From the NCBI GenBank assembly GCA_013696965.1, contig JACCXN010000068.1:1-27392 (forward strand): a stretch of 27,392 bases of DNA, written 5' to 3'. A program made the position numbers and the translations under genes. This document shows, piece by piece, positions 257 to 27,391 of the stretch. The first letter of the stretch is position 1, and each line of letters begins with the position of its first letter. The notes beneath the pieces are model-generated. The model had not been told where the DNA came from and did not search any database. It worked only from the letters and a program-made list of their open reading frames with translations. This DNA is from Bacteroidota bacterium (GTDB lineage: Bacteria > Bacteroidota > Bacteroidia > JACCXN01).

Positions 257-383
257 AACATTGCATATAAGCAAGTGGCGGTCTTGGTGCTCTATTGCAA
301 AGCCTGGAATTTCTATTAACTTTGCTGCTCACGGTTTTTGGTTCGGTGCTGCAATCGCCACCTGCTTATATGCAAAAAACGTT
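257..383 (+). repeat. attC-like palindromic repeat, copy A
   Basis: This 127-bp repeat begins AAC and ends GTT. Its arms are GCATATAAGCAAGTGGCG near the left end and CGCCACCTGCTTATATGC near the right end, which pair with one mismatch. Spacers between the outer trinucleotides and the stem differ (3 versus 7 bases), giving an asymmetric internal loop. The centre is a long terminal loop with a smaller GCAAAG/CTTTGC pairing. It closely resembles copies at 26275 and 27265. The flanks are not target-site duplications (GCTC left, ATAG right), which argues against a simple MITE. Confidence 0.75.
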
Positions 384-744
384 ATAGCCAATGGTAAAAA
401 AAGACAGTGCAATGAAAACCTTTGACAGAAACGTAACGGAAACTGCTGTAATGACACTTACGGGCAGACAAAGAAACGGGCGACACGCAAGCCGACCCGA
501 AAAAGATTTAATTTTTGCCCCACCGCACTTTAAAAAAGAAAAAAAAGGATTGCCACCGCTCAATTTTTTGTCACGGTTTTTGTCCACCGCTTCGTTTAGC
601 ACATTTGCTGTTTATTTTTTATTATGCGTAGAGAAAATTACGCATAATAAAAAATTGGCGAAGCCACCAACAACAAAAGAGCTAAACCCCGCCCACAAAA
701 CAAAAACACGTGCCAAAAAATTCTGCCTGCCCGCTGGTGCTTCG
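384..744. other. gene-free leader of unit 1
   Basis: An open frame runs through this stretch into the next gene, but its translation is a low-complexity Lys/Arg/Pro-rich mix without family character and looks like chance reading of leader DNA. The 17 bases at 502-518 (AAAGATTTAATTTTTGC) recur inverted at 4857-4873 near the other end of the unit. Confidence 0.5.
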
Positions 745-1269
745 TTGACAGGTTTGTGGTTATTGACCGTTTTGTTTTCCATAGACATTTTTGCTCAAAA
801 CATTCAGACACAGAAACCACAATTTGAAAGTTTCGAGCCCGTAAAATCAGAACATTATTTTACGACCGTTCCAATAAATCAAGGTTATACTTATCAAACA
901 CCACAGCAAAATGTTCCAATGGGTGCTACTGCTCAAGACATAATTAATCAATCAAACAGCAGAGCACAAGGCTCTGTTTATACTCCCAACATGACAACAC
1001 AGGAAAGGCAGCAAGCGAATATCAAATATATTCAACAGCAAATGGCGAATGACCCTGCATATCAGCAACCGAATAAATCAAACAATTTTTCTCAAAATAT
1101 AAATCGCAAACAACAGCAGGAAGTTGTGGACATTTTAAACGAAGTTCATTCAACTGAAAGCAGCAGACGGTTTAATATGAATGATTACAAATCGCCTGAA
1201 TTTTCTACAAAAACAAAACCCTACACAGATGCCTTGCAACAGTTAAAAGACCAGTTATCAGGACAATAG
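745..1269 (+). pseudogene. 5' part of transglutaminase-like secreted protein, ends at in-frame TAG
   Basis: The frame is open from 391, but recognisable protein begins only with a signal-peptide-like stretch (LTGLWLLTVLFSIDIFAQ), so I start at the TTG at 745; TTG at 754 is an alternative and no ATG fits well. A Gln/Asn-rich linker follows. The segment ends at TAG 1267-1269, and the next open frame (1300-2259) is in the same frame. The residues across the stop (LKDQLSGQ, stop, KLSVADAYFVMENAYG) align with an uninterrupted stretch of the next gene (LVDMLEGKKTLSYEQAITIIENAYW). I therefore infer a nonsense mutation inside one gene. A sequencing error or programmed readthrough is possible but less likely. 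Confidence 0.6.
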
Positions 1270-1299
1270 AAATTATCTGTTGCAGATGCTTATTTTGTA

Positions 1300-2259
1300 A
1301 TGGAAAACGCCTACGGAAATTCTTATCTCTCTAAAAAAGAATACGACCAAATTATTAAACAATCGGTTGACTTTATTAAGCAGTGGTTAACTCAACAAGG
1401 TTACAGATTAAAAGACAATGACGCATTGCATTTAGGCATTCAAAAGTTTTTGAGCGATACGCTCTCTATAACTATCGCTAATCTGGACAATCCTAATGTT
1501 CCGAAAAAAACAACACACTTGCCATTCTTTTACGATTATGAAGATTTCAAAGGCGAAAAAGATTTTAGAAATTATTTTTTAACTAAATGCCTTGCAACTG
1601 GAAGCGGACAGTGTAACAGTTTGCCTGCTGTTTATTCTTCAATTGCTGATGGATTGGGAGCTAAATCTTATTTAACTTTTGCCCCACATCATTCCTTTAT
1701 CAAGTATCCTGACAATAATGGAACAATTCACAGCTACGAGCCAACTTCAAACTGGAAAATAGGCGATAAATGGTATCAGGACAATATGTTTATCAGTCCA
1801 AAAGCAAAGGCAAACGGAATTTATCTTGACACGTTAAATAAAAAACAAATTGTCGCCAATTGTATGATTGACCTTGCTTTTGGTTATTTACAAAAACATG
1901 GTGTTGCTGACGGTGAATTTGTAAAGGATTGCATTGCTTCCGCAATGCAGCATTTCCCGAAACAAAATAATATTCAGGCTTATTTTGTTTACAGTAGTTT
2001 ATTGGCAAGGCAATTAGACCGTGTTTTATACGAAAATAAAATTACTGACCTGAAAGATATTTCCAAAGTTCCCGAAGCTCAACAAATTTACAATGCTTTG
2101 CTTAAAAACGAAGAAACTATTACCAAATTGGGTTATCAAGACCAGCCCGACCCTTTATATGATGAACTCATGAAACAGCACGAATTTAAAGGTAAAGCCC
2201 AACAAGAGAAAAACATTTCAGGAAAACAAAAACGCGACTTATTCATCAAATCATTTTAA
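1300..2259 (+). pseudogene. 3' part of transglutaminase-like protein (separated by TAG)
   Basis: This 319-residue frame is the continuation of the preceding one. It carries the catalytic-type region of a transglutaminase-like fold: Cys105 in GSGQCNSLPAVYSS, His130/His131 in TFAPHHSF, and Glu147 in HSYEPTSN. The same order appears in the neighbouring 685-residue protein (Cys175, His201, Glu218). If translated alone from the ATG at 1300 it would lack the signal peptide and the N-terminal helical segment, so it would probably stay in the cytoplasm or be inactive. The bases between 1270 and 1299 read KLSVADAYFV in the same frame, supporting a single ancestral gene. The domain call is fairly good; activity is unknown. 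Confidence 0.6.
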
Positions 2260-2276
2260 ACCTTAAATTTACAGCT

Positions 2277-4334
2277 ATGAAAACAATCCAACTTTTAACA
2301 GTCTTGCTTTGGGGACAGTTTTTTTCTGTTCAATTTGTGCTTGCATCAGACACACTTACTCAATCTAAATCACATTTCTATCTAGCAAAACAAAATTTAG
2401 TAGATATGCTTGAAGGAAAAAAAACTTTGAGTTATGAGCAAGCTATTACTATCATTGAAAATGCTTATTGGGAAAATAAAGCTGACCTTTCGCTTTTCAA
2501 TTATTCAGTTGACTTACATTTAAAAAACATTCAACGATTAATTGATGCCAACAGAAATTATTCCAATCAGGATTTTAAAAGAACTTTACTTGAGACGGAA
2601 GAACAGAAAAAAGCAAAATACGAAAGGTCTTTAGCGAACTGGGCGATTTTTTCATATATGACCGACACGACCTTTTTCGTTGGACAAGACAAATTATTTT
2701 ATAATTTACCTTTTAGTTACTCAACCAATGACCCTTTGGGAACTATTAATTGGAGCAATACACAGGTAATCAATTTACTTGACACTAAAAAAGGAAATTG
2801 TTTTGCTTTAGTTTCTCTTTTTAAAATTTTCTCTGAACGCTTAAATTCACAAGCCATTATCTGCACAGCTCCTGGACATATTTATATTCGACACGCAGAC
2901 CATAAAGGAATTTTTCACAATGTAGAATTGGCGACAGGTGCATTTCCCGGAACCGGCTCAATGGAAACATTGACTTATACAACTGATGAAGCAACCAAAA
3001 ACGGAATTTCGCTTCGTGAACTGGATTTAAAACAGTCGGTAGCACTTTGCCTTGTTTACCTTGCAAAGGGCTACGAATACAAGTTTAATACAAGAAATGA
3101 CGATTTTATTTTGGAGTGTGCTGAACTTGCTTTGAAATACGACAGTTTAAATTTAAATGCCATGCTTTTAAAAGCGGAAGTTTTAGAAGAACGGCTAATT
3201 GCTAAAAACAAAACTGTTGCTCAATTACAAAAGGAGAAAGATTTTATTGAGTATGAAAACTTCATAAATCATTTGTTTTCATTGGGCTATCGTGAAATGC
3301 CAATGGAAATGAAAAATTTGGTTATCTCACGTTTGAGAAAAGAAGACGCACCTTTTCCAATCAAAGACCACACACCAAAACCAAACGAACATTTGGGAGT
3401 TAAAAATGACCGTTATTTTACTTTATCAGGTGGTTTATTTGATGAAATGATGCTTACCAAACCTGTTGAGCAATATCACAGAACTCATTTTGACACGAAG
3501 AAGAAGAAAATTTCAAAGTTCATTCCAGTTGATACTACTTACAACAAATACCCAATTGACTTAGTTGTTTTTGCTTGGCAAATTGACCCTTTAGCTCACA
3601 AATTTGCATATTTAAGTCCTTATTCAGCCTTTAACAACAATCCAATATATTATGTTGACCCTGATGGCAGAAGTGGTATAGCATATAAAACAGATAAAAA
3701 AAACGAATCAACAGGAAGGCCAATTTTAAAAGTAGTTTCAAATTATTACATCTATGGTGAGGCTGCGACTGAAGCTCGTAGAAATTCAATAGAAAGCGAC
3801 TTAAATAATAATTATAACAAGGGATTTACATTTACTGATAATGCAGGAACAACATATGATGTAGTGTTTGAATTTAAAGCTGAAATTGTAGACGCTTCAA
3901 AAGTTAATTCAATGATGAAAGAACTAAATGCGGAAAACAATTTTTTTGAGGCAAGAACTGATGTTGCAGAATCACACGCTTTAACTGGTGTCTATGGTGG
4001 TAATGCTGGAGTATTTAAGGCTAGCGATCTTGATGCAAATATTGGAACAGCATCTCACGAAGCGAATCACGGTTTTGGAGGTCCGAATCACCCTGACTTA
4101 ATTGGAAAAACTATTAGCGAAGGAGCTGATATTGACATTACTATTCCGCAAAATTCAACATATTCATCTGGGAAATCTATTGATATTACAAATAGAAAGG
4201 TTACACAACAAAATGTAAATGATATTCTTAACAAAGTTACATTTGACAAAAATGGTAAAGGCGAAGTAGGAACAGCCAGACCTCATAAATACGATAAAGA
4301 AAAAGGATATACAGATGTTAGAGATGAAAAATAA
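2277..4334 (+). CDS. secreted transglutaminase-like protein with RHS-core segment and HEXXH toxin-like tail
   Basis: The 685-residue protein starts with a signal peptide (about residues 1-24, ending VLASDT). Residues about 30-330 match the preceding broken gene and hold a transglutaminase-like Cys175, His201, Glu218 set. Residues about 438-472 read like the end of an RHS-associated core (WQIDPLAHKFAYLSPYSAF, then VDPDGR), the usual junction to a variable toxin domain, although no YD repeats precede it. The tail after it contains HEANHGFGGPNH at 594-605, a zinc-metallopeptidase HEXXH motif resembling the metzincin type with one extra residue before the third His. The start is the ATG after a short gap from the broken gene. 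The next gene overlaps its 3' end, as expected for an immunity partner. Toxin function is inferred. Confidence 0.75.
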   Translation: MKTIQLLTVLLWGQFFSVQFVLASDTLTQSKSHFYLAKQNLVDMLEGKKTLSYEQAITIIENAYWENKADLSLFNYSVDLHLKNIQRLIDANRNYSNQDFKRTLLETEEQKKAKYERSLANWAIFSYMTDTTFFVGQDKLFYNLPFSYSTNDPLGTINWSNTQVINLLDTKKGNCFALVSLFKIFSERLNSQAIICTAPGHIYIRHADHKGIFHNVELATGAFPGTGSMETLTYTTDEATKNGISLRELDLKQSVALCLVYLAKGYEYKFNTRNDDFILECAELALKYDSLNLNAMLLKAEVLEERLIAKNKTVAQLQKEKDFIEYENFINHLFSLGYREMPMEMKNLVISRLRKEDAPFPIKDHTPKPNEHLGVKNDRYFTLSGGLFDEMMLTKPVEQYHRTHFDTKKKKISKFIPVDTTYNKYPIDLVVFAWQIDPLAHKFAYLSPYSAFNNNPIYYVDPDGRSGIAYKTDKKNESTGRPILKVVSNYYIYGEAATEARRNSIESDLNNNYNKGFTFTDNAGTTYDVVFEFKAEIVDASKVNSMMKELNAENNFFEARTDVAESHALTGVYGGNAGVFKASDLDANIGTASHEANHGFGGPNHPDLIGKTISEGADIDITIPQNSTYSSGKSIDITNRKVTQQNVNDILNKVTFDKNGKGEVGTARPHKYDKEKGYTDVRDEK

Positions 4335-4707
4335 TTATTTGTTCACTTGTATTTTAGCAATATTTTGTGTGTCGTGTCAATCACAAAATATTACAAGTTA
4401 TAATTCCAAATTATGGAAGCAAGACACTTTAGGATTAAATAAAAATAGAACTATAATTAATGAAAAAGTATTTTATGAAGATTTTTTAAATCAAAAAGAT
4501 AGTAAGGTGATTAAGAAACTAGGTAAACCGGACTACTTAATTACTTCAGGCAATAAAACTTATTACAATTATTGCAGAGCAAGTTATAAATACGGAAGCT
4601 CAATAGAGGATTTCAAAAATGATAAAGATTGTAGAGGTTCTTATGTTTCCTTAATAATAGAAAAAAATAAAGTTACAGATATAGTTTTTGTAAATTCTGG
4701 TGGCTAA
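4324..4707 (+). CDS. putative lipoprotein, candidate immunity protein
   Basis: The 127-residue protein begins MKNNYLFTCILAIFCVSC, a short hydrophobic signal followed by a probable lipidated Cys18. The body has KKLGKPDYLI and a Lys/Tyr-rich beta-rich C-terminus, loosely like the small BamE/SmpA fold, but I cannot assign a family. I prefer the ATG at 4324 to the in-frame ATG at 4315 because it puts the charged residues directly before the hydrophobic segment. It overlaps the toxin-like gene by 11 bases, implying coupled translation. A periplasmic lipoprotein next to a secreted metallopeptidase toxin fits a cognate immunity role. This rests on position only. Confidence 0.7.
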   Translation: MKNNYLFTCILAIFCVSCQSQNITSYNSKLWKQDTLGLNKNRTIINEKVFYEDFLNQKDSKVIKKLGKPDYLITSGNKTYYNYCRASYKYGSSIEDFKNDKDCRGSYVSLIIEKNKVTDIVFVNSGG

Positions 4708-4950
4708 CGCTATTTTTCGTCATGCTTTTTGTGCCGACACATTTTTAGCACATTGCCGTCCTCGTTCCTGCGGGCTGCAAAGAGCTAAAGCCATCGCTCA
4801 ACAAAAAGGTATGCCAAAAGCCACCGCACCGTAAGACAGTAAAAATGCCTCGCTTCGCAAAAATTAAATCTTTCGACCGCACCAAATCAACAAATATGAC
4901 CGTTTCAAACAGACACCAAAAGCAACGACAGACAAGAACCACTGGGCTAT
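4708..4950. other. gene-free trailer of unit 1
   Basis: No gene is supported. The stretch is richer in G and C than the coding DNA and contains GCAAAAATTAAATCTTT (4857-4873), the inverted partner of 502-518. The antisense open frame across it has no protein character. Confidence 0.5.
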
Positions 4951-5075
4951 AACACGGGTTTGGCAAAAGTGGCGGTGCTGTGCTTCGTAGGACAATTTAG
5001 TGGGTATATAAACTTTAATGCTTTCTATGTAAATTGGTGCTAAAAATCGCCACCTTCGCCAAGCCCGAAACCGTT
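4951..5075 (+). repeat. attC-like palindromic repeat, copy B (divergent family)
   Basis: This 125-bp repeat begins AAC and ends GTT. Arms CGGGTTTGGCAAAAGTGGCG and CGCCACCTTCGCCAAGCCCG pair with a few mismatches. The outer stem differs completely from copies A, C and D, while the inner AAGTGGCGGT / ATCGCCACCT block, the overall length and the asymmetric spacer (1 versus 5 bases) are kept. Conservation of shape over sequence is what attC sites show. Confidence 0.75.
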
Positions 5076-5503
5076 ATAAGCAAGCCTAGGGGAAAAGTTC
5101 ACCAAAGCCTTGTCTAACAAGCCGCACCGCCCTCTGCCTATCCTTCTGTATTTTTTTATTTTCCCCTCACGCACTTTTTTTAATTTAATTTAAGCCATTG
5201 CACACAATGCCACATTTACTTTTGCCCTTCCCACAAAGACCCTCCACACATTGCAAAAGTAAAAGAGGCATTTCCACCAACCCACACGTTTCTGCTTTAT
5301 ATTTTATAATATTTGTGATATAACCACACCTTAATTTTTTGTTATTCTATTATGAGAAATTAAAATAAACATTATGTTTGTTTATTTTATGTCTTAATTA
5401 TGCATCACCTTAAAATGACACAAATGGTCTACTTTAAATAATTGGTATGTTGAACGAGTAAGCTGAAAATCGAAAGAGTAAGCAAAAACTAAAATACAAA
5501 ATA
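5076..5503. other. gene-free leader of unit 2
   Basis: No gene is supported across these 428 bases. The first half is C-rich on the plus strand with long T tracts; the second half is A/T-rich and holds the promoter-like palindrome described separately. A short hairpin CTTGT-CTA-ACAAG lies near 5109-5121. Confidence 0.5.
5361..5389 (+). promoter_or_regulatory. palindrome around a TATGTTTG box upstream of the repeat protein
   Basis: TAAAATAAAC (5361-5370) and GTTTATTTTA (5380-5389) form a perfect 10-bp inverted repeat. Between and overlapping them is TATGTTTG (5373-5380), matching the Bacteroidota -7 consensus TAnnTTTG. No well-spaced -33 TTG was found, so this is a candidate promoter or operator about 115 bases before the gene. 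Confidence 0.35.
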
Positions 5504-5905
5504 ATGGCAAAAATATTTCAGGGCGACAGCACTTCTTCAAATAAAATCGTATTTACATTTGATGCTAAATACGTTTATCAAGGCGACAGTTCATCATCAA
5601 ATAAAAGGATATATACTTGGGACGGCAAGCACATTTACCAAGGTGATAGCACATCTTCAAATAAGAGATTGTATACATGGGATGGAAAATATCTTTACCA
5701 AGGTGATTCTACATCATCAAATAAACGACTTTATACTTGGGACGGAAAATACTTTTATCAAGGAGACAGTTCTTCTTCAAACAAAAGAATTTACACATTT
5801 GACGGTAAACATTTGTTTCAGGGAGATAGCACATCTTCAAATAAAATAATGTATACTTTTGATTCACCAATACCACCAGCAGTAATACTTGCTACAATTG
5901 CTTAA
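5504..5905 (+). CDS. protein built of six 20-residue GDSxSSNK repeats
   Basis: The 133-residue protein is almost wholly repeats: residues 5-124 are six units of exactly 20 residues with the pattern (Y/F)QGDS(T/S)SSNKR(I/L)YT(W/F)DGK(Y/H)x. Aromatic, Gly-Asp and Asp-Gly positions are fixed and the pattern suggests repeated beta-hairpins, as in other small beta-repeat proteins of Bacteroidota. There is no signal peptide. The C-terminus ends in a short hydrophobic tail (PIPPAVILATIA). The ATG at 5504 precedes the first repeat directly. Function is unknown; repeat number probably varies by slippage or recombination. A second, out-of-phase open frame across it is a shadow caused by the 60-bp periodicity. 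Confidence 0.8.
   Translation: MAKIFQGDSTSSNKIVFTFDAKYVYQGDSSSSNKRIYTWDGKHIYQGDSTSSNKRLYTWDGKYLYQGDSTSSNKRLYTWDGKYFYQGDSSSSNKRIYTFDGKHLFQGDSTSSNKIMYTFDSPIPPAVILATIA
5516..5875 (+). repeat. 6 x 60-bp tandem coding repeat
   Basis: Six in-frame 60-bp units encode the 20-residue repeats. Core blocks such as CAAATAA and GGCGACAG/GGTGATAG recur at 60-bp spacing with synonymous differences, so the array is not a very recent expansion. Confidence 0.8.
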
Positions 5906-5918
5906 CTTTAAAATAAAA

Positions 5919-6010
5919 ATGTCAACTGGTTTTTTAAACCAGAAATTTATTTAGAGTAGCGACAATATTGAAGTACTGTTGACATAAAAAGTGGAGACCA
6001 GAGACCACTT
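5919..6010 (+). other. nested hairpins between two small genes
   Basis: ATGTCAAC (5919-5926) pairs with GTTGACAT (5978-5985). Inside is CTGGTTT-TTT-AAACCAG (5926-5942), followed by an A/T-rich stretch, which could act as a weak terminator for the repeat protein gene. Next is AAGTGG...CCACTT (about 5989-6010). This could be a terminator plus a structured leader for the small gene at 6068. Confidence 0.35.
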
Positions 6011-6067
6011 ATCAAACGGGGCGAAATCGAAAAGCCAAATAAGTAGGAAAATTTAAACTGTAAAGCT

Positions 6068-6205
6068 ATGAGTAAAAAAACACCTCCACCTAATCCAAAT
6101 TGGCCGAGTAAAATTCCAGGTAACCCTTCGGGGCCAGACAGAGGAAACAACCCTGCAAAAACACCAGCAAAACCAAGCCCGACACCAACCCCGAAAAAGA
6201 AATAA
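6068..6205 (+). CDS. 45-residue Pro/Lys-rich small protein
   Basis: The frame ATG 6068 to TAA 6203-6205 encodes 45 residues starting MSKKTPPPNPNWPSKIPG and continuing with NPSGPDRGNNP and a Lys/Pro-rich end (PTPTPKKK). The composition is far from random for this A/T-rich DNA. From memory, short MSKKTPPPNP proteins with an SGxxRGNNP block occur in other Bacteroidota. It should be basic and disordered. The gene lies between a hairpin cluster and a strong terminator, so it may be its own transcription unit or the end of the one starting at 5504. Function is unknown. Confidence 0.6.
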   Translation: MSKKTPPPNPNWPSKIPGNPSGPDRGNNPAKTPAKPSPTPTPKKK

Positions 6206-6279
6206 CTTTGAATACACGAAAGTCTAAATCATTTGTGATAGATAATTTGCCTATTTCATATAACGAAGAGGTAATAACC

Positions 6280-6312
6280 AAAAGCCCCACTTGCAAAGCA
6301 AGCAGGGCTTTT
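6280..6312. terminator. strong hairpin terminator, convergent genes
   Basis: AAAAGCCC (6280-6287) pairs with GGGCTTTT (6305-6312), and CTTGC-AAA-GCAAG pairs inside. The stem has A tracts on one side and T tracts on the other, so it can work in both directions. It sits between the small gene ending at 6205 and the minus-strand gene ending at 6349. Confidence 0.75.
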
Positions 6313-6348
6313 CGGTTTTGCACACATAATCCAGTCAACTAAAAAAAG

Positions 6349-7149
6349 CTAAAACACTTTTTCCAATCTCATGGCATTCTTTGCAGCAAGCAGGTAAAAG
6401 TCACCATTAATCTCCTGGTAAAACTCTATACCTATACAAGCAATCACACCAGCCGTAAGCGGAATGATGGGAGCACCCGGAATAGCACTTACAATACTCA
6501 AAATACCCGGGGAGTTTCCACCCAACAAAGTATAAGGACTGTAAGTGATATTGTGCTTGCCATTAATGCCCGGGTTTACTGCTTTATAATGCTTCACCGA
6601 ATTAATATAGGTGAAGTCAGAAAGCACAGTAAGAGCATTAACCACTCTACAGTGAGTAGCACCTTGTGGAGGTGTAATATAATTATCCGTGTTGAACACA
6701 GGAATAGTTATAGTTACCTCGTTCCGGTCTACATTAGCCGCAATGGTGTACGGTGCATTAAACACAGCACTGAATGAAGCATCAGGAGTAAACTCAAAGC
6801 CTTCAATAATTTCCTGATTAAGGACAATCTCGAAACTTCGTTTCCCCCTTGATCCACCTCCTAGTTCAACCAACTTTCTAAACAAGCCGGTTACCCTTGA
6901 GGAAATGTACCTGCCTCCCATGAACTTTATCAGTTCAGCCAATCCAGTGCGGAGTGATTTACCGACCATTGCACTGCCTCCAAACTCCGACATGTTTTCA
7001 CGTGTCCGTTTAAAAGCGGGGTCGTTCATTATTTTGGACTTATCCAAACTTGTGGATTCTCTTACGAATCCTTTACCATCTTTGGTAAAAAAGGTCAAAT
7101 CTCCGATTTGCCCTTTGATCCTTATCGGACCTTTTTGAATTGCACACAT
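6349..7149 (-). CDS. MCA-x-QKG family protein of unknown function, paralog 1
   Basis: This 266-residue protein begins MCAIQKGPIRIKGQIGDLTF. It has a basic, helix-rich N-terminal part with PAFKRTRENMSEFGG, and a beta-rich C-terminal part ending YLLAAKNAMRLEKVF. There is no signal peptide. It is collinear over its full length with the 266-residue product of 24907-25707 in the same orientation; the last 15 residues are identical. From memory the family is widespread in Bacteroidota and has no assigned function. The two copies frame the defence island. The start at the ATG 7149 is supported by the matching N-terminus of the paralog and by the shared upstream hairpin. Confidence 0.8.
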   Translation of the reverse strand: MCAIQKGPIRIKGQIGDLTFFTKDGKGFVRESTSLDKSKIMNDPAFKRTRENMSEFGGSAMVGKSLRTGLAELIKFMGGRYISSRVTGLFRKLVELGGGSRGKRSFEIVLNQEIIEGFEFTPDASFSAVFNAPYTIAANVDRNEVTITIPVFNTDNYITPPQGATHCRVVNALTVLSDFTYINSVKHYKAVNPGINGKHNITYSPYTLLGGNSPGILSIVSAIPGAPIIPLTAGVIACIGIEFYQEINGDFYLLAAKNAMRLEKVF

Positions 7150-7177
7150 AAAACATAAGGTATTAGGTTAGTAAATT

Positions 7178-7191
7178 CCCGCTTTCACGGG
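7178..7191 (-). promoter_or_regulatory. conserved CCCG/CGGG leader hairpin of paralog 1
   Basis: CCCG-CTTTCA-CGGG lies 29 bases upstream of the start codon at 7149. The same element with near-identical flanks (ATTCCCGC, CACGGG, TGAAT) stands at the same distance before the second paralog. It could be an mRNA leader hairpin or an operator. Confidence 0.5.
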
Positions 7192-7729
7192 TTGAATAAC
7201 CAAGACGTCATTGGTTTTGTAGTTGTGCAATCATTTTTTGGAAGTATTGATTTCTCCTATAACGGGCAGAATTTTCTATTTGTTACATCAGAAAATCAAC
7301 TTTCTTCAAAAGTTAAAACGCTCCGTCTATCGGTCAATAACTGCATGGTCTGTAGAGGTATTCGGGTAGAAAAATAATTTTATTTAATCTTTATTTTTCC
7401 GTTTTATTTAGGATAAATAATTGTCAATGTATTAAATCTTATGAATATAATATTTCAAATTTGTTAAATACTTCTGACCTAAGTATATAAGAGGTATTGA
7501 AAAAATCAATTACATTAGCAGCAATAAAAAAGCAAAAATAGCATAGCAAATAGGTAATTTTAGGATATAAAATAACAAAAATAAAGTTCAACTACCCATT
7601 TAGTTTATCCACCCAAAGGTAGGAATAAACTCATTTTTGGCTGGTGCTATGTGACAAACTGACCAAACAGAGGTGGCACACCATCTGATTTGACCGGCTT
7701 TTAAACTAAACTTTTACAAGAAAAAATTA
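7192..7729. other. gene-free, A/T-rich stretch before the DnaJ operon
   Basis: A 61-residue open frame at 7192-7377 has no convincing protein character. The stretch contains an imperfect stem-loop at 7602-7631 (AGTTTAT...ATAAACT with inner ACC/GGT) followed by CATTTTT. It probably carries the promoters of the diverging genes, but I could not pick a clear -33/-7 pair. Confidence 0.4.
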
Positions 7730-9145: not shown

Positions 9146-9148
9146 ACT

Positions 9149-20172: not shown

Positions 20173-20174
20173 AT

Positions 20175-21887
20175 ATGGAAAATCCATTCGTTTTTGATAG
20201 ACCAAATAATATTAATATTAGTGAATTTATTCAATTCTACATAAAGGAAAATATCTATACTAGATTTCTTGAATCAACAAGAAATATTTTATTAATTGGT
20301 GTTAGAGGTAGTGGAAAAACATCTACTTTGAGGTATTATTCTTTCCCTGTTCAATTTGCTAATTCAGAAGTTGAAGATAAATATTCTGTTATAGGTATTC
20401 ACATACCCAGTAAACATGCGATTTTTGGCAAAAGAGAATATCTTCTATATGAAAATCAAAATAAACAAAGTGTTGTTATTGAACATTTTCTATGTATCAA
20501 TATAATTTCATGTATATGCGAAACATTTATTAGTACTCCGGGAAGTTTAGATTTAACTTCAGATATAGAAAAAAAGATTTTAAAAAATTTATCTTTTATT
20601 CTTGAATCTGATTTTCCAACTGAGAATTCTTTGTTTGAAAGCATTAAGCTTTTTGTTAACAAAGAAGCTAATTCAAGTCAAAGGAAATTAAATAATGATG
20701 ATTTTGAAAGCTTTATAGATTTCTCTTTTTCATTTAATAATACAATAATTCCTTTTTTAGAGCAATTAAAAAATATTCCTAATTTAGAAAATTCACATTT
20801 TTCTTTATTCTTTGATGATATCCAAGATTTAGGAAAAATTCATCAAGAAATTATAAATTCATGGATATCATATAGAGATAATAAGTTGTTCAGTTTTAAA
20901 ATTGCAACAGCAGATATAAAACCTTCATTTATTACTTCTACAGGTGGAGTAATTCTTGAAGGGCACGATTTTGTAAAGATTGATCTTACTAAAAGGTTAT
21001 ATAATAAAGAATCAGAATTTAGCAAGTTTGCAAGAGATGTAATAGCTAAAAGACTGATGATTGCAAAAATTGATGTTAGTGTTGAAGAATTTTTACCAGA
21101 AAGCGAAAGTTTTAGAAAAGGATTAGATGATGGTAAACTTAAAGCAAGAAAATTGGCTGCTATAAAATATCCAGATCCTAAGGGGACACAAATCAATGAT
21201 TATGTAGCAAAATATGGCAGGGCAATATACTTTAGAGAGCGAAATCCAAAAGCAAATTTACCTATTTATTCTGGTTTTGAGACTTTAGTAGATATTTCAA
21301 CAGGAGTAATTAGAAATCTCTTAACTCCAGCTTTTTTTATGTATGAAAAACAATTGTCAAATACTAATGGAATTTTTGTAAGGGAGATACCATCTGATGT
21401 TCAAAAAGAAATTATTTTAAATAGAAGTGAAACATTTTGGGAGAAAATAAAAGATATCGATTCAGAAATTGAAAATTGCCCAGAAGAGCTAGGAAAAAAA
21501 ATCAATAATTTTTTCAATCAATTGATGATTTATTTAAAGAAGAGGTTGAAGAATGAAACAATATCTGAACCACGCGCTTTAAATTTCATTATATCTCAAA
21601 TTGCAAATGAGGAAGAGCAAATCCAAATAGATGAAATCATTAATACTTCTTTGAAGAGCACCTTACTATATAAAAGGATGGTAGGTCACAAAGCAACTGG
21701 TGTTAAATTACCGTTGTATGTTCCAAATAGAATGATGCTTCCATTACATGGGCTTGATTCGCACGGTCAATATTCACATTTCCCAATTACTGGTCGTGCA
21801 TTTCTAGAGGCTGCTTTACAAAATAAAGAAATTCCATTTTTTGCTGACGAAGACGAAGCAACGAACCAACTTGAACTTATATTTTAA
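20175..21887 (+). CDS. ORC/CDC6-like AAA ATPase
   Basis: The 570-residue protein has a Walker A motif GVRGSGKTS (42-50) and a Walker B-like strand LFFDDIQDL (211-219). An N-terminal helix (SEFIQFYI) precedes the P-loop, as in ORC/CDC6-type and STAND-like ATPases of defence operons. Sensor-like polar residues follow in the strand FKIATADIKPS. The C-terminal half is helical, with a basic patch near YPDPKGTQINDY and the end segment GLDSHGQYSHFPITGRAF. It should be the NTP-driven switch of the operon. Its TAA is immediately followed by the ATG of the next gene. I could not match it to a named defence ATPase. Confidence 0.8.
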   Translation: MENPFVFDRPNNINISEFIQFYIKENIYTRFLESTRNILLIGVRGSGKTSTLRYYSFPVQFANSEVEDKYSVIGIHIPSKHAIFGKREYLLYENQNKQSVVIEHFLCINIISCICETFISTPGSLDLTSDIEKKILKNLSFILESDFPTENSLFESIKLFVNKEANSSQRKLNNDDFESFIDFSFSFNNTIIPFLEQLKNIPNLENSHFSLFFDDIQDLGKIHQEIINSWISYRDNKLFSFKIATADIKPSFITSTGGVILEGHDFVKIDLTKRLYNKESEFSKFARDVIAKRLMIAKIDVSVEEFLPESESFRKGLDDGKLKARKLAAIKYPDPKGTQINDYVAKYGRAIYFRERNPKANLPIYSGFETLVDISTGVIRNLLTPAFFMYEKQLSNTNGIFVREIPSDVQKEIILNRSETFWEKIKDIDSEIENCPEELGKKINNFFNQLMIYLKKRLKNETISEPRALNFIISQIANEEEQIQIDEIINTSLKSTLLYKRMVGHKATGVKLPLYVPNRMMLPLHGLDSHGQYSHFPITGRAFLEAALQNKEIPFFADEDEATNQLELIF

Positions 21888-22763
21888 ATGATAGAAACAG
21901 TCATAACTGTCTTAGGATGGGAGGATAGATTTCCATTAGGAATGGAAATAATTTTAAGTAAGTACAAAGTTAAAAGGATAGTATTAATCTCTTTCATTGA
22001 TTATTGTTCTATGGATAAAATGGAAGACAACAAAAAAAACCTTTTGGAAAATTGTGCTATGGAAAAAATTGAAGTTGTAGAGGTCAATTTAGAATATTCT
22101 AATTCTATAAATAATTGGAAGTGTCTAGATCAATTCTTTGAAAAAGAAACAGAAAATATCGAATATTTACTTAACATTACTACAATTCCTCGAGAAACTA
22201 TTTGGGCATTACTGTTTTTCCTTAGACAGAAAAATAGTCATATTAACTATATCTATTTCAAACCAGAAACTTATTGTGATGGTTGGCTCACTAAAAATTA
22301 TAAAAATCCAAGGTTATTATTCAAGCACTCAGGTGTGTTTGAATTGGATAAGAAATTAGCTCTATTTATTATTACTGGATTTGATGATAGCCGTCTGGAT
22401 TCACTTATAGAATATTATGAACCTAGTAAAATTGTTGTTTTTAGCCAAAGGGGGAATCAATTCCATAATATGGATAGAAATAAATACATTAAAAAAAGTA
22501 ATTCATTTGAATCCGAAATAGTTGAATTTGATAGTTATGATGTAGAAGAAGCAACAAAAATTTTGAATGATACGATTATAAAATACGGAGATTCAAATAT
22601 TATTATATCATCTCAAGGTCCTAAATTATCTTCACTCAGTACGTATAAAAACCATCTTTTACATGATAGTATAGCTTTTGCATATGTACCTGCTCAAGAT
22701 TTTAATCTTGAATACTCCAAAGGCATAAACCCTGATTATATTGATGGAAAATTGGAGATTTGA
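21888..22763 (+). CDS. two-domain Rossmann-like protein, possibly CARF-like
   Basis: The 291-residue protein has two alpha/beta domains. The first opens ETVITVLGWEDRFPLGMEI, followed by strands RIVLISF, KIEVVEVNL and YLLNITT. The second starts near residue 155 with LALFIITGFDDSRLDSLIEY, followed by KIVVFSQRGNQF and NIIISSQGP. Strand-loop-helix units with Gly/Asn/Thr-rich loops resemble nucleotide-sensing CARF and related Rossmann domains, but no single signature is decisive. The ATG directly abuts the ATPase stop codon, so the two proteins are made together and probably interact. No membrane segment or nuclease motif is visible. The family is not recognised. Confidence 0.7.
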   Translation: MIETVITVLGWEDRFPLGMEIILSKYKVKRIVLISFIDYCSMDKMEDNKKNLLENCAMEKIEVVEVNLEYSNSINNWKCLDQFFEKETENIEYLLNITTIPRETIWALLFFLRQKNSHINYIYFKPETYCDGWLTKNYKNPRLLFKHSGVFELDKKLALFIITGFDDSRLDSLIEYYEPSKIVVFSQRGNQFHNMDRNKYIKKSNSFESEIVEFDSYDVEEATKILNDTIIKYGDSNIIISSQGPKLSSLSTYKNHLLHDSIAFAYVPAQDFNLEYSKGINPDYIDGKLEI

Positions 22764-22937
22764 ACTTCATGAATTATACTTATTCCACTTAATAGTTCTT
22801 ATTTATATGATATACAATGGAATTAATAACCCCGTAAGGCTAATCTGAAGGTAAAGGAGAAGTAAATTGAGCTTTAAAAATTAAATTTATAATCTTTTGT
22901 TTTACAATTTTTTTATAAATACGTTAGTCAGGCCCTT

Positions 22938-23954
22938 ATGACAAGATACCATGACATATCAATCGTAACCAATAACGCGTACAGACTTGCCGAATTAATT
23001 AATGGCGGATGCTATACCAACATTTTATATTACGAATTTCACGAAGTAGTTGACCCGACTGGTATTTACAATTGCTTAGAGGGGTTAGAAGCATTTTCAG
23101 AACGTTCAATATCCTTTTATAAAATTTTCTTTTCTAGCGGCTATATTGACGTACAGCCAGCAAATATTCATATTGCAGTTAAATTAGAAGACGAGTGGTT
23201 TATTGCTCACGACTGCGGCTCCAATTATTATCTCGGTTACGGACCGACAGGCATATTAAAACTTAGAGAAGCTTGTGCAAATAAAAATATTGCCAGTTTT
23301 GCTAGTGAGGACAAATTTGAAGAATGGCTAAAACTAAAATTTGGAAGTCCGAAGAAACTGACCATATCAGACAAAAAAAGTATAGACCAACTTCAATTTG
23401 AGAAACTAATTAAAGCCACTCAGTTTTTGACAAATGATATGCAAAGAAGGCCTTTGCAATATCAAGGATTAAACGAAGAAAATATTCGTGATCTTATGCT
23501 GACACCTATAAACGTAACCTTTAAAGGTCGAGGAAATGCGGAAGCAAAAAATTGTAATGGAAAAACAGACATACTTGTTAAAACGAAGGACGGCTTAAAC
23601 GAACATATTTTTGAGTTGAAAGTTTGGAACGGGATTGGTACTCTAAAAGAAACAATTGAACAATTGCTTGGATATTTAGGTTGGCACAATAACTTCTGCG
23701 GAATCATTATGTTCTGTTATAAAATAAACTTTACCAATATTTTGAAAACGGCAGAAGAACATTTAAGAGAATACTACAACTTTGACAAAAGTGAAAGATA
23801 TATTCCAAATGAATTTCGATTTCGGCTTCAACATCCGACAGACAAATTCAAACATATTGAAACACACTTGACATTTGTAAATCTTAAAACAAATCTTAAA
23901 ACAAATCTTATTAATTCGGCAAATCACAAGCATACCACTCAGGATGACATTTAA
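22938..23954 (+). CDS. PD-(D/E)xK nuclease-like protein
   Basis: The 338-residue protein starts at ATG 22938 and has an N-terminal alpha/beta domain of unknown type (about 1-140). A C-terminal nuclease-like domain contains NGKTDILV (Asp211), IFELKVW (Glu226, Lys228) and EQLLGYLGWH (Gln242). This is the order D...ExK...Q of the PD-(D/E)xK superfamily, close to C-terminal domains annotated as restriction-like in many defence proteins. The coding DNA is visibly richer in G and C than the operon just upstream, and 174 bases separate them, so it is probably a separate module. Its 3' end overlaps a small minus-strand zinc-ribbon gene by 44 bases. It could be a stand-alone defence nuclease. Confidence 0.75.
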   Translation: MTRYHDISIVTNNAYRLAELINGGCYTNILYYEFHEVVDPTGIYNCLEGLEAFSERSISFYKIFFSSGYIDVQPANIHIAVKLEDEWFIAHDCGSNYYLGYGPTGILKLREACANKNIASFASEDKFEEWLKLKFGSPKKLTISDKKSIDQLQFEKLIKATQFLTNDMQRRPLQYQGLNEENIRDLMLTPINVTFKGRGNAEAKNCNGKTDILVKTKDGLNEHIFELKVWNGIGTLKETIEQLLGYLGWHNNFCGIIMFCYKINFTNILKTAEEHLREYYNFDKSERYIPNEFRFRLQHPTDKFKHIETHLTFVNLKTNLKTNLINSANHKHTTQDDI

Positions 23955-24057
23955 TACAGTAAATATGCATTCTATACCGCATTGGTTTACCACAACCAAA
24001 ACATGAGAAATATTCAATTCTGGGTTTTTCAACCTTAAGTTTAATTATTTTCCCCAA
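23911..24057 (-). CDS. 48-residue zinc-ribbon protein
   Basis: This frame has no ATG near its start and begins at TTG (24055-24057); an in-frame stop lies just upstream. It reads MGKIIKLKVEKPRIEYFSC, then FGCGKPMRYRM, HIYCIKCHPEWYAC and DLPN. Cys19/Cys22 and Cys34/Cys37 form two CxxC knuckles 11 residues apart, with further Cys44 and His38, typical of a small zinc ribbon. A chance frame would rarely give two such knuckles in 48 residues. It lies 28 bases after the stop of the small helical gene on the same strand, so both may be one operon. It overlaps the end of the nuclease-like gene. Role unknown, perhaps DNA, RNA or protein binding. Confidence 0.6.
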   Translation of the reverse strand: MGKIIKLKVEKPRIEYFSCFGCGKPMRYRMHIYCIKCHPEWYACDLPN

Positions 24058-24085
24058 CCGATTAAAAGTTTAATGAGCTATTAAA

Positions 24086-24316
24086 TTAACACAAAGAAAA
24101 TTCAAACTGAAATTTTCCATTTGAAAAATTAATTATTGATTGAGTTATCTTATTGTCCAGTTTTTTAGAACATTCTTGTAATCGAATACAAATCTCTTGT
24201 ACTTCTTCATCACTTTTTAAATGTTGAGTTAAATTAACCAAACATTCTATTGTACTCATAATTGCCGTTATTTCATATGTTAATTGAGATAACTCTAACT
24301 GGAATTTTGTTTTCAT
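24086..24316 (-). CDS. 76-residue helical small protein
   Basis: The product starts MKTKFQLELSQLTYEITAI and is predicted to be almost entirely alpha-helical, with heptad-like Leu/Ile spacing (CLVNLTQHLKSDEEVQEI, CIRLQECSKKLDNKI). There is no membrane segment or signal peptide. It diverges from the XRE regulator gene across 142 bases that contain palindromes, and is followed by the zinc-ribbon gene. This layout suggests a small regulated module. No family was recognised. The protein-like composition and neat context make it more likely real than not. Confidence 0.55.
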   Translation of the reverse strand: MKTKFQLELSQLTYEITAIMSTIECLVNLTQHLKSDEEVQEICIRLQECSKKLDNKITQSIINFSNGKFQFEFSLC

Positions 24317-24337
24317 TTATCTGGAATTATTTATAAA

Positions 24338-24435
24338 TATCAGTGGATCAAATATAATAAAGATATTCTTATTGCATACTTTAAAGAAAATAATACATAC
24401 TAAAAGTTTATCAATAAACTCAGTTAACACTGATA
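24338..24435. promoter_or_regulatory. divergent control region with palindromes
   Basis: Between the divergent starts, TATCAGTG (24338-24345) is mirrored by CACTGATA (24428-24435), and GTTTAT-CA-ATAAAC (24406-24419) is a perfect palindrome. Such sites fit binding by a dimeric XRE regulator encoded next door, acting on both promoters. Confidence 0.4.
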
Positions 24436-24458
24436 CTTTTACTCCATAGTTTTCATAT

Positions 24459-24761
24459 ATGGCTTTAGGAACAAAAATCAGATACTTTAGAAATTTAAAA
24501 GGGTGGAGTCAGGATGTTATGGCTGATAAATTAGATATATCGTTACCAGCCTATTCAAAAATAGAAAGAGACATAACAGATGTTAGTTTTTCAAGATTAA
24601 ATCAAATTTGTAAAGTTCTTGGAATAACCTTAATAGAATTGCTTTCCTATCCTTCAAAATCAACAGACCAAAATAATCTACTGAAAACATTAGCAGAAAA
24701 GGAAAAAGAAATAATTAAACTTCAAAAGAAAATAATTGAACTTTTAGAGAAGAAGAAATAA
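24459..24761 (+). CDS. XRE-family helix-turn-helix regulator with C-terminal coiled coil
   Basis: The 100-residue protein has a Cro/C1-type helix-turn-helix in residues about 5-62: IRYFRNLKGWSQDVMADKL, then ISLPAYSKIERDITDVS and LNQICKVLGITLIELL. A short coiled coil (70-98, LAEKEKEIIKLQKKIIELL) should give dimerisation. It probably binds the palindromes in the upstream divergent region and controls itself and the small minus-strand genes. The ATG at 24459 gives the standard N-terminal spacing. It is the last gene of the island before the second paralog, and convergent with it. Confidence 0.85.
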   Translation: MALGTKIRYFRNLKGWSQDVMADKLDISLPAYSKIERDITDVSFSRLNQICKVLGITLIELLSYPSKSTDQNNLLKTLAEKEKEIIKLQKKIIELLEKKK

Positions 24762-24906
24762 CTTAATCTCAAAAAATTAACTTTGAATTAGGTTTCCAAG
24801 CCGCCTCATCCTTGTCCTCTACTCTACTTCAGTACTTGGAAATTGATATTCATATGCGAATTTTTCGAGTATTAAATATACAGTTACAATAGCAACAAAT
24901 CCCCAA

Positions 24907-25707
24907 TCAAAACACCTTCTCCAACCTCATAGCATTCTTTGCAGCAAGCAAATAAAACCCTCCATTTATCTTCTGGTAAAACTCAATCCCTAAACAAGCT
25001 ATTACTCCGACAGTAGCGGGAATAACCGGAGAACCTGGAATAGAACTTACAATAGACATATTAGCCAAAGTGCTGCCACCCAAAGGGGTGTAATCACTAT
25101 AAGAAATATTGTTTTTAGAATTTATTTCAGGATTAACCGGCCTGTACCCTTTTAAAGCAGGGTTATAAGTATAATCAGAAAGCACTGTAATTGCATTAAT
25201 AATTCTAAAATGGGAAGCACTTTTTGGAGAAGTAATAAAATTATTCGTTTTAAAGACCGGAATAGTTATGGTAACCTCATTACGCCCTGCATTGGCAGAA
25301 ATATCATAAGGAGCAGTAAAAACACCTCCAAAGGCAGTGTCAGAATTAAAATCAAAACCTTCAATATTATTGCCGTTGGCTAAAAACTCAAGACTTCTTT
25401 CTCCCCTAATTCCATTTCCATGTTCAATTACTTTTTTAAGTTGTCCGGTAAGCCTTGCAGAAATGTACTTGCCTCCCATATCCTTGATAATTTCACCAAG
25501 ACCCAAACGAAAAGCTTTGCCGGCCATTGAGCAGCCACCAAATTCCATCATGTTTTCCCGGTTTCGTTTAAAAGCTGGAGACGTTTTAATTCTTTGCTTA
25601 CTCAGTCTGGATATCTCTTTTACATAATCCACACCGTCTTTGGAATAAAAAGCTAAGTTTCCTATTTTTCCATGAAGTTTGATAATACCTTTTTGTTTTG
25701 CGCACAT
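24907..25707 (-). CDS. MCA-x-QKG family protein of unknown function, paralog 2
   Basis: This 266-residue protein begins MCAKQKGIIKLHGKIGNLAF and shares the whole layout of the 6349-7149 product, including PAFKRNRENMMEFGG, the segment RNEVTITIPVF, and the end YLLAAKNAMRLEKVF. The two are the same length and orientation with clear nucleotide similarity at the 3' end. They are about 18 kb apart and bracket the defence genes. Function is unknown. The genes may be passive landmarks, or long direct homologies that allow the island to be deleted or exchanged by recombination. Confidence 0.8.
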   Translation of the reverse strand: MCAKQKGIIKLHGKIGNLAFYSKDGVDYVKEISRLSKQRIKTSPAFKRNRENMMEFGGCSMAGKAFRLGLGEIIKDMGGKYISARLTGQLKKVIEHGNGIRGERSLEFLANGNNIEGFDFNSDTAFGGVFTAPYDISANAGRNEVTITIPVFKTNNFITSPKSASHFRIINAITVLSDYTYNPALKGYRPVNPEINSKNNISYSDYTPLGGSTLANMSIVSSIPGSPVIPATVGVIACLGIEFYQKINGGFYLLAAKNAMRLEKVF

Positions 25708-25735
25708 AACACATGAATTTAGAAGTTAAATAATT

Positions 25736-25749
25736 CCCGCTCTCACGGG
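25736..25749 (-). promoter_or_regulatory. conserved CCCG/CGGG leader hairpin of paralog 2
   Basis: CCCG-CTCTCA-CGGG lies 29 bases upstream of the start codon, matching the element at 7178-7191 in sequence, spacing and flanks while the surrounding DNA differs. Confidence 0.5.
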
Positions 25750-25869
25750 CTGAATTAAAAACTTTTAACTAAGTTATGTAGCTATATTATCATAAAGAGA
25801 ATTGTTTCTCTTTAAAACGGAAATGCTTTTCTTTTGGTTACATTATTTCATTTAAATTCTATGACAGTA

Positions 25870-25968
25870 TCGGGTAAATGTCGGGTGCCATTCGGGTGGG
25901 ACTCGGGTCGTATTCGGGTGCCATGCGGATGGCAGTCGGGGTACAGTCGGGACACAGTCGGGTTTAAG
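25870..25968. repeat. nine TCGGGT-like boxes at exact 11-bp spacing
   Basis: Boxes start at 25870, 25881, 25892, 25903, 25914, 25925, 25936, 25947 and 25958. Six read TCGGGT; the others are GCGGAT, TCGGGG and TCGGGA. The five spacer bases vary (GCCAT twice). A period of 11 is not a multiple of 3, so it is not protein-driven, and it matches about one helical turn. An A/T-rich TATATAAT-like stretch follows at about 25970. An array of aligned protein-binding sites upstream of a transcript is the simplest reading. Confidence 0.75.
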
Positions 25969-26274
25969 AGTATATAATAGCAATATTTTTCAATAACTAT
26001 TAGCCTTGAAACTAGAGAATGACCGGAAACAGCCAGCCCACGGGAAAAGCACATTTCCAATTCACACTGCCAACCACGCAAACCAAAAATTGTAAAAGAG
26101 CTTCTCCCTTTCCTCCCCAAAGAAAATTAAATTAAAAAAATCCCCCCTCAAAAATAAAAAAATACCCAACTCGCACTAGCCATGCAAAGTATACCACTCC
26201 AAGTTATTACTCATTCATGAAAGCCTTTAGCAGAGCAGCTTGTATCCCCATTTATTACCAAAAGGCCAGCTTAT
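25969..26274. other. gene-free trailer of unit 2
   Basis: No gene is supported. It holds C-rich and A-rich tracts, including the mirrored A/T tracts at 26124-26140 and 26151-26165 that match the unit's other end. An antisense open frame of 90 codons is explained by the GC-rich boxes. Confidence 0.5.
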
Positions 26275-26401
26275 AACATTGCATATTCGCAAGTGGCGGT
26301 CTAGGTGCTCTATTGCGAAGCCTTGTATTTCTATTAACTTTACTGCTCACGGTTTTTGGTTCGGTGCAATAATCGCCACCAGCGTATATGCAAAAAACGT
26401 T
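26275..26401 (+). repeat. attC-like palindromic repeat, copy C
   Basis: This 127-bp repeat runs from AAC to GTT, close to copy A. The left arm reads GCATATTCGC and the right arm, read in complement, GCATATACGC. Copy A has GCATATAAGC in both, so the A:T pair at the eighth position has become C:G on both arms, a compensatory change that supports selection on the stem. Confidence 0.75.
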
Positions 26402-26531
26402 GCCCGCCAGCATAGGGTTTCGGACCGCTTTTTTTTAGGACAACTGTGAAGCGAGCATATCCATGTTAGGGCCGAATCGCACCAGTACCCATGACTTGAC
26501 CAACATTTATCAGGCCCCAAGGAACTTTCAG

Positions 26532-26661
26532 ACCAACCTCAAGGCTTAAATAAGACGACCTAACCCGCAAGGCAGAGGCATAACACCGCTTTTTAAACCA
26601 ACGGCAAGGCTTAAATAGGACGACTTAATCCAGGCCAGGCCAGGGGCATAAAACCTTCCCT
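26532..26661. repeat. 65-bp direct repeat, two degenerate units
   Basis: ACCAAC...AAGGCTTAAATA(A/G)GACGAC(C/T)TAA...GGGCATAA-like units start at 26532 and 26597. AAGGCTTAAATA recurs at 26541 and 26606, 65 bp apart. Confidence 0.55.
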
Positions 26662-26676
26662 GCTTAGCTTTAACAT

Positions 26677-26701
26677 CCCTTTAGGACAAGGGTTTTTTTT
26701 T
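26677..26701 (+). terminator. intrinsic terminator inside gene-free unit 3
   Basis: CCCTT-TAGGAC-AAGGG (26677-26692) is followed directly by nine T residues. The presence of a terminator with no upstream gene hints at a non-coding transcript in the preceding 250 bases. Confidence 0.55.
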
Positions 26702-26760
26702 GAACCTGCCCCAGAACCCCTGAAAAACATGGAAATTTGCATATAAGGAAATTATCGGGT

Positions 26761-26823
26761 AACTTTAAGAGAGAGAAATTCTTAAATAAAAAAATTCATT
26801 ACGAATTTCTCTCTCTTAAAGTT
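26761..26823. repeat. 21-bp perfect inverted repeat (long hairpin)
   Basis: The 21 bases at 26761-26781 (AACTTTAAGAGAGAGAAATT and a final C) are exactly reverse-complementary to 26803-26823, with a 21-base A/T-rich loop. The stem is far longer than an intrinsic terminator and has no flanking T run. Confidence 0.75.
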
Positions 26824-26867
26824 AGTTGTTATTGCCCTTTGACATATTGGTTTAGGCGCGGCGGGCT

Positions 26868-26962
26868 GGGTAAAAATGCGGCGGTGTGCGAGGGTGCCGA
26901 TAAGGGTCGGCAAGTAGGGGAGCCTAGTGCGACAAGACCCTTAGCCGGGCTTATTTTTACCC
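26868..26962 (+). other. GC-rich block closed by a 10-bp stem, possible structured RNA
   Basis: GGGTAAAAAT (26868-26877) pairs perfectly with ATTTTTACCC (26953-26962). Inside, GCCGA (26896-26900) can pair with TCGGC (26907-26911), or AAGGGTC (26902-26908) with GACCCTT (26936-26942); the two pairings exclude each other. A run of six Ts follows at 26965-26970. The open frame running through it has no protein family character. Confidence 0.4.
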
Positions 26963-27033
26963 GATTTTTTGCTTACTTTTTTCTAAAAAAAGTGAGAGAA
27001 AAACACTGCCACCGGACTGGGTTTTTCGCAACA

Positions 27034-27235
27034 GGCCTGACCTAAACGGGCTGACCCTCGGGACGATTTAACTTTTATTGGTTCTCCCTTTTTCGGTAGC
27101 TCGTCATGAGCGCATCACTGCTAAAGCAAGATTTGGCCTGACCTAAATGGGCTGACCCTCGGGACGATTTAACTTTTATTGGTTCTCTCTTTTTCGGTAG
27201 CTCGTCAGAAGCGCATCACTGCTAAAGCAAGGCAA
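27034..27235. repeat. 101-bp tandem duplication
   Basis: Units starting GGCCTGACCTAAA at 27034 and 27135 are nearly identical over about 97 bases up to GCTAAAGCAAG, differing at a few positions (ACGGG/ATGGG, CTCCC/CTCTC, CATGAG/CAGAAG). Confidence 0.8.
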
Positions 27236-27264
27236 GGCCAGACCTTGTCAAAATGCCGGCGGGC

Positions 27265-27391
27265 AACATTGCATATAAGCAAGTGGCGGTCTAGGTACTC
27301 TATTGCAAAGCCTGGAATTTCTATTAACTTTGCTGCTCGCGGTTATTGGTTCGGTGCTGTAATCGCCACCTGCATATATGCAAATAACGTT
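27265..27391 (+). repeat. attC-like palindromic repeat, copy D
   Basis: This 127-bp repeat from AAC to GTT ends one base before the window edge. It is nearly identical to copy A in the left arm and loop, with a single stem mismatch (TAAGC against TATGC) and minor loop changes. Confidence 0.75.

Follow-up and report, generated by a model that had tools for sequence, protein, structure and literature searches.

The cassette array of the window

The window analyzed here comprises 27,392 nucleotides and is the entire contig C68 of a Bacteroidota genome assembly of 3.86 Mb in 106 contigs. The four AAC-to-GTT repeats of 125–127 bp recognized in the first-pass annotation were all present, and they delimit three complete cassettes, the 5' end of each being complementary to its own 3' end (Table 1). 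Also the observation that the three interval starts are exact complements of the bases before the next AAC proved correct. At the left edge of the contig, site 1 forms the end of a cassette that is present only in part. Sites 1, 3 and 4 share a mutual identity of about 90%, while site 2 is diverged; it was missed by BLAST with the other sites and was picked up by its stem and own-end complement, later also by the covariance model. Site 2 resembles a site in the genome of another family (L102:11226-11349). The assembly breaks at the attC-like repeats, and many short contigs start or stop inside a site.

Table 1. Coordinates of the attC-like sites and the complete cassettes of the window.
Feature	Position	Strand	Description
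attC-like site 1	257..383 (127 nt)	+	Hairpin from AAC to GTT with a 15/16 stem and spacers of 1/5 nt; covariance model 114 bits
attC-like site 2, diverged type	4951..5075 (125 nt)	+	Covariance model 93 bits; stem and own-end complement
attC-like site 3	26275..26401 (127 nt)	+	Covariance model 110 bits
attC-like site 4	27265..27391 (127 nt)	+	Covariance model 111 bits; right end of the contig
Cassette 1 (4.7 kb)	382..5073	+	GTTATAGCC at 381 complements GGCTATAAC ending 4953
Cassette 2 (21.3 kb)	5074..26399	+	GTTATAAGC at 5073 complements GCTTATAAC ending 26277
Cassette 3 (1.0 kb)	26400..27389	+	GTTGCCCGC at 26399 complements GCGGGCAAC ending 27267

Cassette 1 contains ORFs of 292, 319, 685 and 130 aa, all on the plus strand. 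No convincing ORF was found in cassette 3, where two tandem 101-bp copies (27034-27235) are 92% identical. The genes of cassette 2 include an NgoBV-like restriction enzyme, restriction-modification pieces, Vsr, two C5 methylases and GmrSD-like (HEC-05), HD-CE, CARF-like and AbiC-like proteins. A defence-rich block at 7730-23954, encoding restriction-modification, Vsr, GmrSD-like, CARF-like, AbiC-like, VWA and DnaJ proteins, has a GC content of about 31%, with flanks of 36–38%. The covariance model detected no attC in the interior of cassette 2. Paralogous genes of 266 aa with 69% DNA identity over 856 bp lie near the two ends of this cassette, both on the minus strand (6349-7149 and 24907-25707), and because of this pair cassette 2 may be either one cassette grown by insertion or two cassettes minus a lost middle site. 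Rfam matches to the DUF805b and DUF805 RNA motifs (5453-5484 and 5986-6053) lie on either side of a six-fold beta-flower gene (5504-5905), and short TCGGGT-type repeats with a period of mostly 11 bp were observed at 25870-25968. In a set of 44 cassettes with a median length of 1.4 kb, the longest ORF runs in the direction of the array in 30 cassettes and in the opposite direction in nine.

Own-end complementarity across the genome

A DNA search of the genome identified 28 copies of the first site type and one weak partial match. The covariance-model search suggested by the first-pass annotation, with a model built from 39 sites, raised the number of attC-like sites in the genome to about 50. 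Arrays, defined by at least two attC sites less than 4 kb apart, were recognized with a median cassette of 1.4 kb, among them those of L090 and L092. Cassette links judged spurious (L053, L109 and the short L099/L102 pairs) were dropped from the later counts.

The complementarity of intervals beyond the window was evaluated in 18 consecutive site pairs of the genome, the sites of which were taken by stem and length only, ignoring the flanks. Altogether 103 of the 108 variable positions matched, the best of 100,000 permutations reaching 81. This permutation replaces the original chance estimate of 1 in 4^19, which was an unsuitable null because the R-box sequences recur within the genome. The comparison upholds the earlier argument that a plain MITE does not explain the flanks. 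Reading the repeats as MITEs, REP-like palindromes or another transposable hairpin would accord with repetitive, palindromic sequences in many copies, but this scarcely deserves credence: no duplication scheme yields own-end complementarity between successive copies, the first site of an array is preceded by an integrase-linked attI, and the pairing is kept despite wide sequence variation. A reading of the repeats as terminators was ruled out by the flanks and the covariation.

The extent of the pairing was determined from 42 cassettes of the source and other genomes, picked by at least eight of nine matches at positions 1–9. Positions 1–9 paired in 93–100% and positions 12–15 in 74–88% of these cassettes, with fading beyond, and since the cassettes were selected on positions 1–9, the fresh information lies in positions 10–20. 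The complementarity of 6, 6 and 7 bases reported for the window was thus present, but its length had been understated. Position 11 was A in all 42 cassettes, mostly facing C. According to this positional pairing each cassette holds both halves of its own outer arm, like integron cassettes, in which the R'' box complements the cassette's own 5' end. Published integron cassettes have 9–11 complementary bases at their ends (PMC2727003). The GTTRRRY consensus, described earlier as partly followed, held at position 4, which was R in 42 of the 42 cassettes, while its remaining positions are violated by common starts, among them GTTATAA, GTTAGCC and GTTGCCC.

Structure and strand bias of the sites

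In the alignment of 39 sites, 89.4% of the stem cells were paired and 191 double-sided changes were found. The covariation score of the stem was 0.544, compared with 0.138 for the shuffled data (0/500) and 0.06–0.11 for slid partners; the sequence of the sites varies widely while the pairing is maintained. The spacers between AAC/GTT and the stem are unpaired and, as first described, asymmetric: lengths of 1 nt and 5 nt, those of site 1, were the commonest overall. The terminal loop is long and variable. Among the 39 aligned sites and 42 cassettes the stem was ungapped, with no conserved extrahelical (bulged) base. None of the Rfam families matched the repeats.

At one constant position of the inner stem, A is opposite C in 35 of the 42 cassettes. 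On the bottom strand such A.C mismatches become T.G wobbles, and the hairpin of that strand is the better one for this reason. Of 46 reconstructed excised sites, a set that also included the 140-bp palindromes of L119 left out of the 42- and 44-cassette sets, the bottom strand was more stable at 44 (mean -37.0 versus -31.6 kcal/mol, DNA parameters).

The cassettes could alternatively be moved as double-stranded Xer-like sites, the hairpin then being a by-product of inverted binding arms or serving, for example, termination. Xer-type enzymes do use double-stranded sites, and the insert credited with hairpin recognition in IntI is absent from the recombinase described below. Such sites would, however, have no need of own-end complementarity, of the consistent strand bias or of a long stem covarying along about 20 bp at low sequence conservation, all of which are expected of folded single-strand sites, and this alternative is considered unlikely.

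The recombinase and the putative attI

As the first-pass annotation had stated, no integrase lies within the window. The recombinase is located on contig C44 of the same assembly: it is a tyrosine recombinase of 646 aa (L038:11214-13154), oriented towards an array. It is followed by a putative attI block, AAAAAGTACTATGTTTATTCCGATATTTAAGAGTT/ATAAGC, the GTT of which lies 138 bp past the stop codon. The first cassette begins with GTTATAAGC at the attI GTT and ends with GCTTATAAC before the site at 14629-14755. This site is 90–93% identical to sites 1 and 3 of the window, and between this cassette and cassette 2 of the window about 210 bp at the start and about 260 bp at the end are shared (87–90% identity). 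The link between the window and C44 consists of this site identity and the shared cassette ends, not of contiguity, the assembly being in 106 contigs. L038, L089 and L090 have in common a conserved block with AGTT as its last bases, about 140 bp past the stop codon, where the first cassette begins. A second, short recombinase of 375 aa, also without the IntI insert, is encoded on C14 (L039:2321-3448), with its own attI-like point and site; this site type is also present in the array of C34.

With the curated integron-integrase model TIGR02249 the C44 recombinase scored 223.6 bits (cut-off 265), about positions 178–239 of the model being skipped, and no true IntI over the cut-off was found in this near-complete genome. 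The scores with the curated XerC and XerD models were also below the cut-offs (161.8 of 335 and 156.6 of 330 bits), and matches to the NCBI archaeal XerA model were 2–27 bits short of the cut-off. The array as a CALIN, an attC cluster without an integrase, was rejected, as C44 has a recombinase, a putative attI and a first cassette; a tool requiring the IntI insert would still call it a CALIN. Some relatives of the enzyme carry the NCBI label 'site-specific tyrosine recombinase/integron integrase'.

The first-pass annotation had recommended looking for a tyrosine recombinase with an IntI-type insertion. The insertion is missing: compared with IntI4 (PDB 2A3V), the best PDB match, the enzyme has 24 residues in place of 66, and the GxKDR-like and HxLRH motifs were 63–68 residues apart in all members measured, compared with 105 in 19 of 19 true IntIs. 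The family, here called patchless, includes the C44 recombinase and some 45 relatives, all without the IntI-specific insert. IntI1 without the insert loses all function (PMC7790495), and single-strand recombination without it is for this reason unprecedented.

Relationship to IntI and Xer

IntI4 was again the first fold match of the AlphaFold core model (pLDDT 88), and the recombinase retains an IntI-like C-terminal SPLD. In the tree, in which Xer was represented by XerC and XerD, IntI and the patchless enzymes were grouped together against Xer with a support of 98/98. The IntI sequences formed one clade (100/99), positioned amid the patchless enzymes; the tree includes long branches, and a single patchless clade was not rejected (p-AU 0.31). 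The tree gave no proof that IntI descends from patchless enzymes. The grouping against Xer, the position of IntI4 as the best match by both sequence and fold and the C-terminal SPLD are the reasons why, of the two options left by the first-pass annotation, 'related to integrons' fits better than 'convergent'.

The N-terminal domain

An N-terminal domain with a WSxxxxCWY-like motif is carried by almost every member whose N terminus is complete; none of the IntI and Xer sequences used for comparison has it. In the long form of C44, a beta-beta-alpha-beta-beta-alpha unit is predicted three times. Pfam gave weak DUF5710 and HARP matches, HARP in 8 of 31 domains with a best E of 4.7e-4, and in a profile search the HARP domain of SMARCAL1 came second (E 0.06). 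The structural matches included the UvsW, XPB and SMARCAL1 HARP domains, UvsW and XPB being among the best with middling scores (Z 5.5–7.3); the Foldseek match to XPB was weak (E 0.07). XPB, UvsW and SMARCAL1 are enzymes acting on forked or branched DNA. On the strength of these modelled similarities it is conceivable, if somewhat doubtful, that the HARP/DUF5710-like domain recognizes the hairpin in place of the patch.

A subgroup of about 280–311 aa in other classes (L151, L152, L153, L154) has neither the N-terminal domain nor an attI-like point behind the stop codon; in some of these, attC matches are located on the gene's opposite side.

Relatives, distribution and possible cassette movement

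The integrase of a Prolixibacteraceae MAG (L090; 53–54% identity) is followed by a similar attI block and four successive self-complementary cassettes with full sites. The layout of integrase, attI and cassettes is present also in L092, L102 and others, and the sequence of L089 stops precisely at the GTT of attI. The host taxonomy of the relatives beyond 'same class' comes from two Prolixibacteraceae records. A strict attI-to-first-site test, using the hairpin and 12 nt with controls, was positive at 12 distinct loci, which are not all independent of each other, compared with 2 of 209 random starts; the doubtful positives of L099 and L119 were excluded, and the test misses some real cases, giving no result for L090. 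A loose chain test accepting any GTT was discarded, as at some loci long chains were obtained from random starts too. No array adjoins recombinases L107, L109, L100 and L101 of the wider family.

Three pairs of sister species (L062/L092, L061/L062 and L068/L069) showed homology through the end of the integrase that stops 1–3 nt from the attI GTT. A comparison of strains for gain or loss of intervals at G/TT had been proposed; the comparison here is between sister species, with homology ending at this point. Similar site stems were found across families (L099/L105; window 4951-5075/L102:11226-11349), and by their sequences these recurring stems are consistent with cassette exchange.

Extended to the relatives, the attC model had matches at E<1e-4 in 258 of the 390 genomes sampled from the class, with a false-positive rate uncalibrated on unrelated phyla. 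In a chosen set of 25 genomes of other classes, all 12 with a strong patchless match also have site matches.

On plasmid NZ_CP092416.1 of Flagellimonas marinaquae (L120), a dihydrofolate-reductase-family gene (3905-4738) lies between two attC-model matches; erm(F) is about 0.5 kb away, and a patchless recombinase with the annotation xerA is at a distance of 1.3 kb. A Chryseobacterium plasmid (L119, NZ_CP041688.1) contains, amid cassettes, long-stem palindromes of 140 bp with identical flanks (15048-15187 and 17429-17568), which are probably a different hairpin element.

An ordinary integron or CALIN, in which a classical IntI acts from elsewhere or has since been lost and the patchless recombinase is incidental, would explain why the geometry of the sites resembles attC, and true IntIs do occur in the phylum, 84 of 296 genomes having a match above the cut-off. 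In G398 (L173), an exceptional case, a patchless-type attC array (5841-8504) lies about 4 kb upstream of a true IntI, the patchless recombinase being elsewhere in the genome, and cross-use of the array by the two is possible. However, only one of the 84 IntI genomes belongs to the class of the source, the source genome itself has no TIGR02249 match over the cut-off, and in many genera attI and the first cassette lie directly behind the patchless gene. In five genomes of other classes that have both genes (G395, G399, G407, G585 and G638), no more than about 7 kb separates site matches from the patchless gene, while the true IntI is on another contig or more than 100 kb away. Together with the lack of a conserved extrahelical base, this makes an ordinary integron very unlikely.

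Proposed system

From the sequence comparisons, the window is very probably part of a chromosomal integron-like cassette array run by an IntI-related patchless recombinase through folded bottom-strand sites; the system would be related to IntI integrons and not IntI-based. The proposal of a cassette system akin to integrons is supported by the cassette logic across the genome, the integrase with its putative attI, the same layout in relatives and the homology ends at G/TT.

In the proposed mechanism, an attC site would be folded from one DNA strand, the bottom one. The outer arm of the folded site would consist of the cassette's own two ends (GTT and 6 bp, a mismatch, then 4 bp) and the second arm of the inner stem, each arm with a near-constant A.C mismatch that would favour the bottom hairpin as a T.G wobble. 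The N-terminal domain, in three copies in the C44 form, would recognize this hairpin instead of a patch. The recombinase would exchange strands at G/TT of attI and of the folded attC sites, and the cassettes would leave as circles, be captured at attI and be shuffled.

The I2 insert is held to have enabled single-strand cassette recombination, and it has been reported from no other protein, with intermediates lacking (PMC7790495). As a tentative and rather improbable reading, the patchless integrons of Bacteroidota could be either the ancestral stock of IntI integrons or an independent solution, in which the I2 insert was predated or dispensed with and the HARP-like fork-recognition domain reads the hairpin. 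If the system works as its anatomy implies, cassette capture would be possible without the I2 insert. It would then also be a large unnoticed gene-capture system in Bacteroidota, considering the number of class genomes with sites, and the origin of integrons could be tested using living relatives. The cassettes carry defence genes, and the plasmid case near erm(F) adds to the relevance of the system.

Comparison with known systems

The known integrons of Bacteroidetes have been reported as IntI-based, in Salinibacter ruber M1 and in the earlier In0 (PMC9024848), and surveys pick integrases by the insert or additional domain (PMC2426708; PMC9668308). Because this selection requires the insert, patchless integrons would have escaped them. 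In the available part of Smyshlyaev et al. 2021 (PMC8138268), the insertion is called essential for integron function, and no patchless member of the 'integron-like' subgroup is tied to cassette arrays. A literature search, the coverage of which left out preprints and subscription papers, found no report of patchless integrons, and arrays beside the relatives labelled 'integron integrase' by NCBI have no description in the searchable literature. Judged by anatomy, the system is probably an integron variant with a patchless recombinase, widespread in Bacteroidota.

The Xer recombinases are chromosome-dimer enzymes without cassette arrays. XerC, XerD and archaeal XerA have the same catalytic length without an insert (67–71 residues), and XerC and XerD are separated in the tree from the group of IntI and the patchless enzymes. 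The inverse integrons of Treponema are set apart by their description as intI integrons, unlike the patchless system.

Among proteins of solved structure, IntI is the closest relative of the patchless recombinase, and sedentary chromosomal IntI integrons, such as the superintegron of Vibrio cholerae and its VCR sites, have in common with the present system the integrase, attI and cassette array. Also shared are sites of about 125 nt, complementary cassette ends, the G/TT cut site (putative in the present system), unequal unpaired spacers and a better bottom-strand hairpin. The patchless system differs from them in lacking the IntI insert, in having near-constant A.C/T.G mismatches instead of a conserved extrahelical base, in an R box of GTTR and not GTTRRRY, in its family-specific N-terminal domain and in some very large cassettes.
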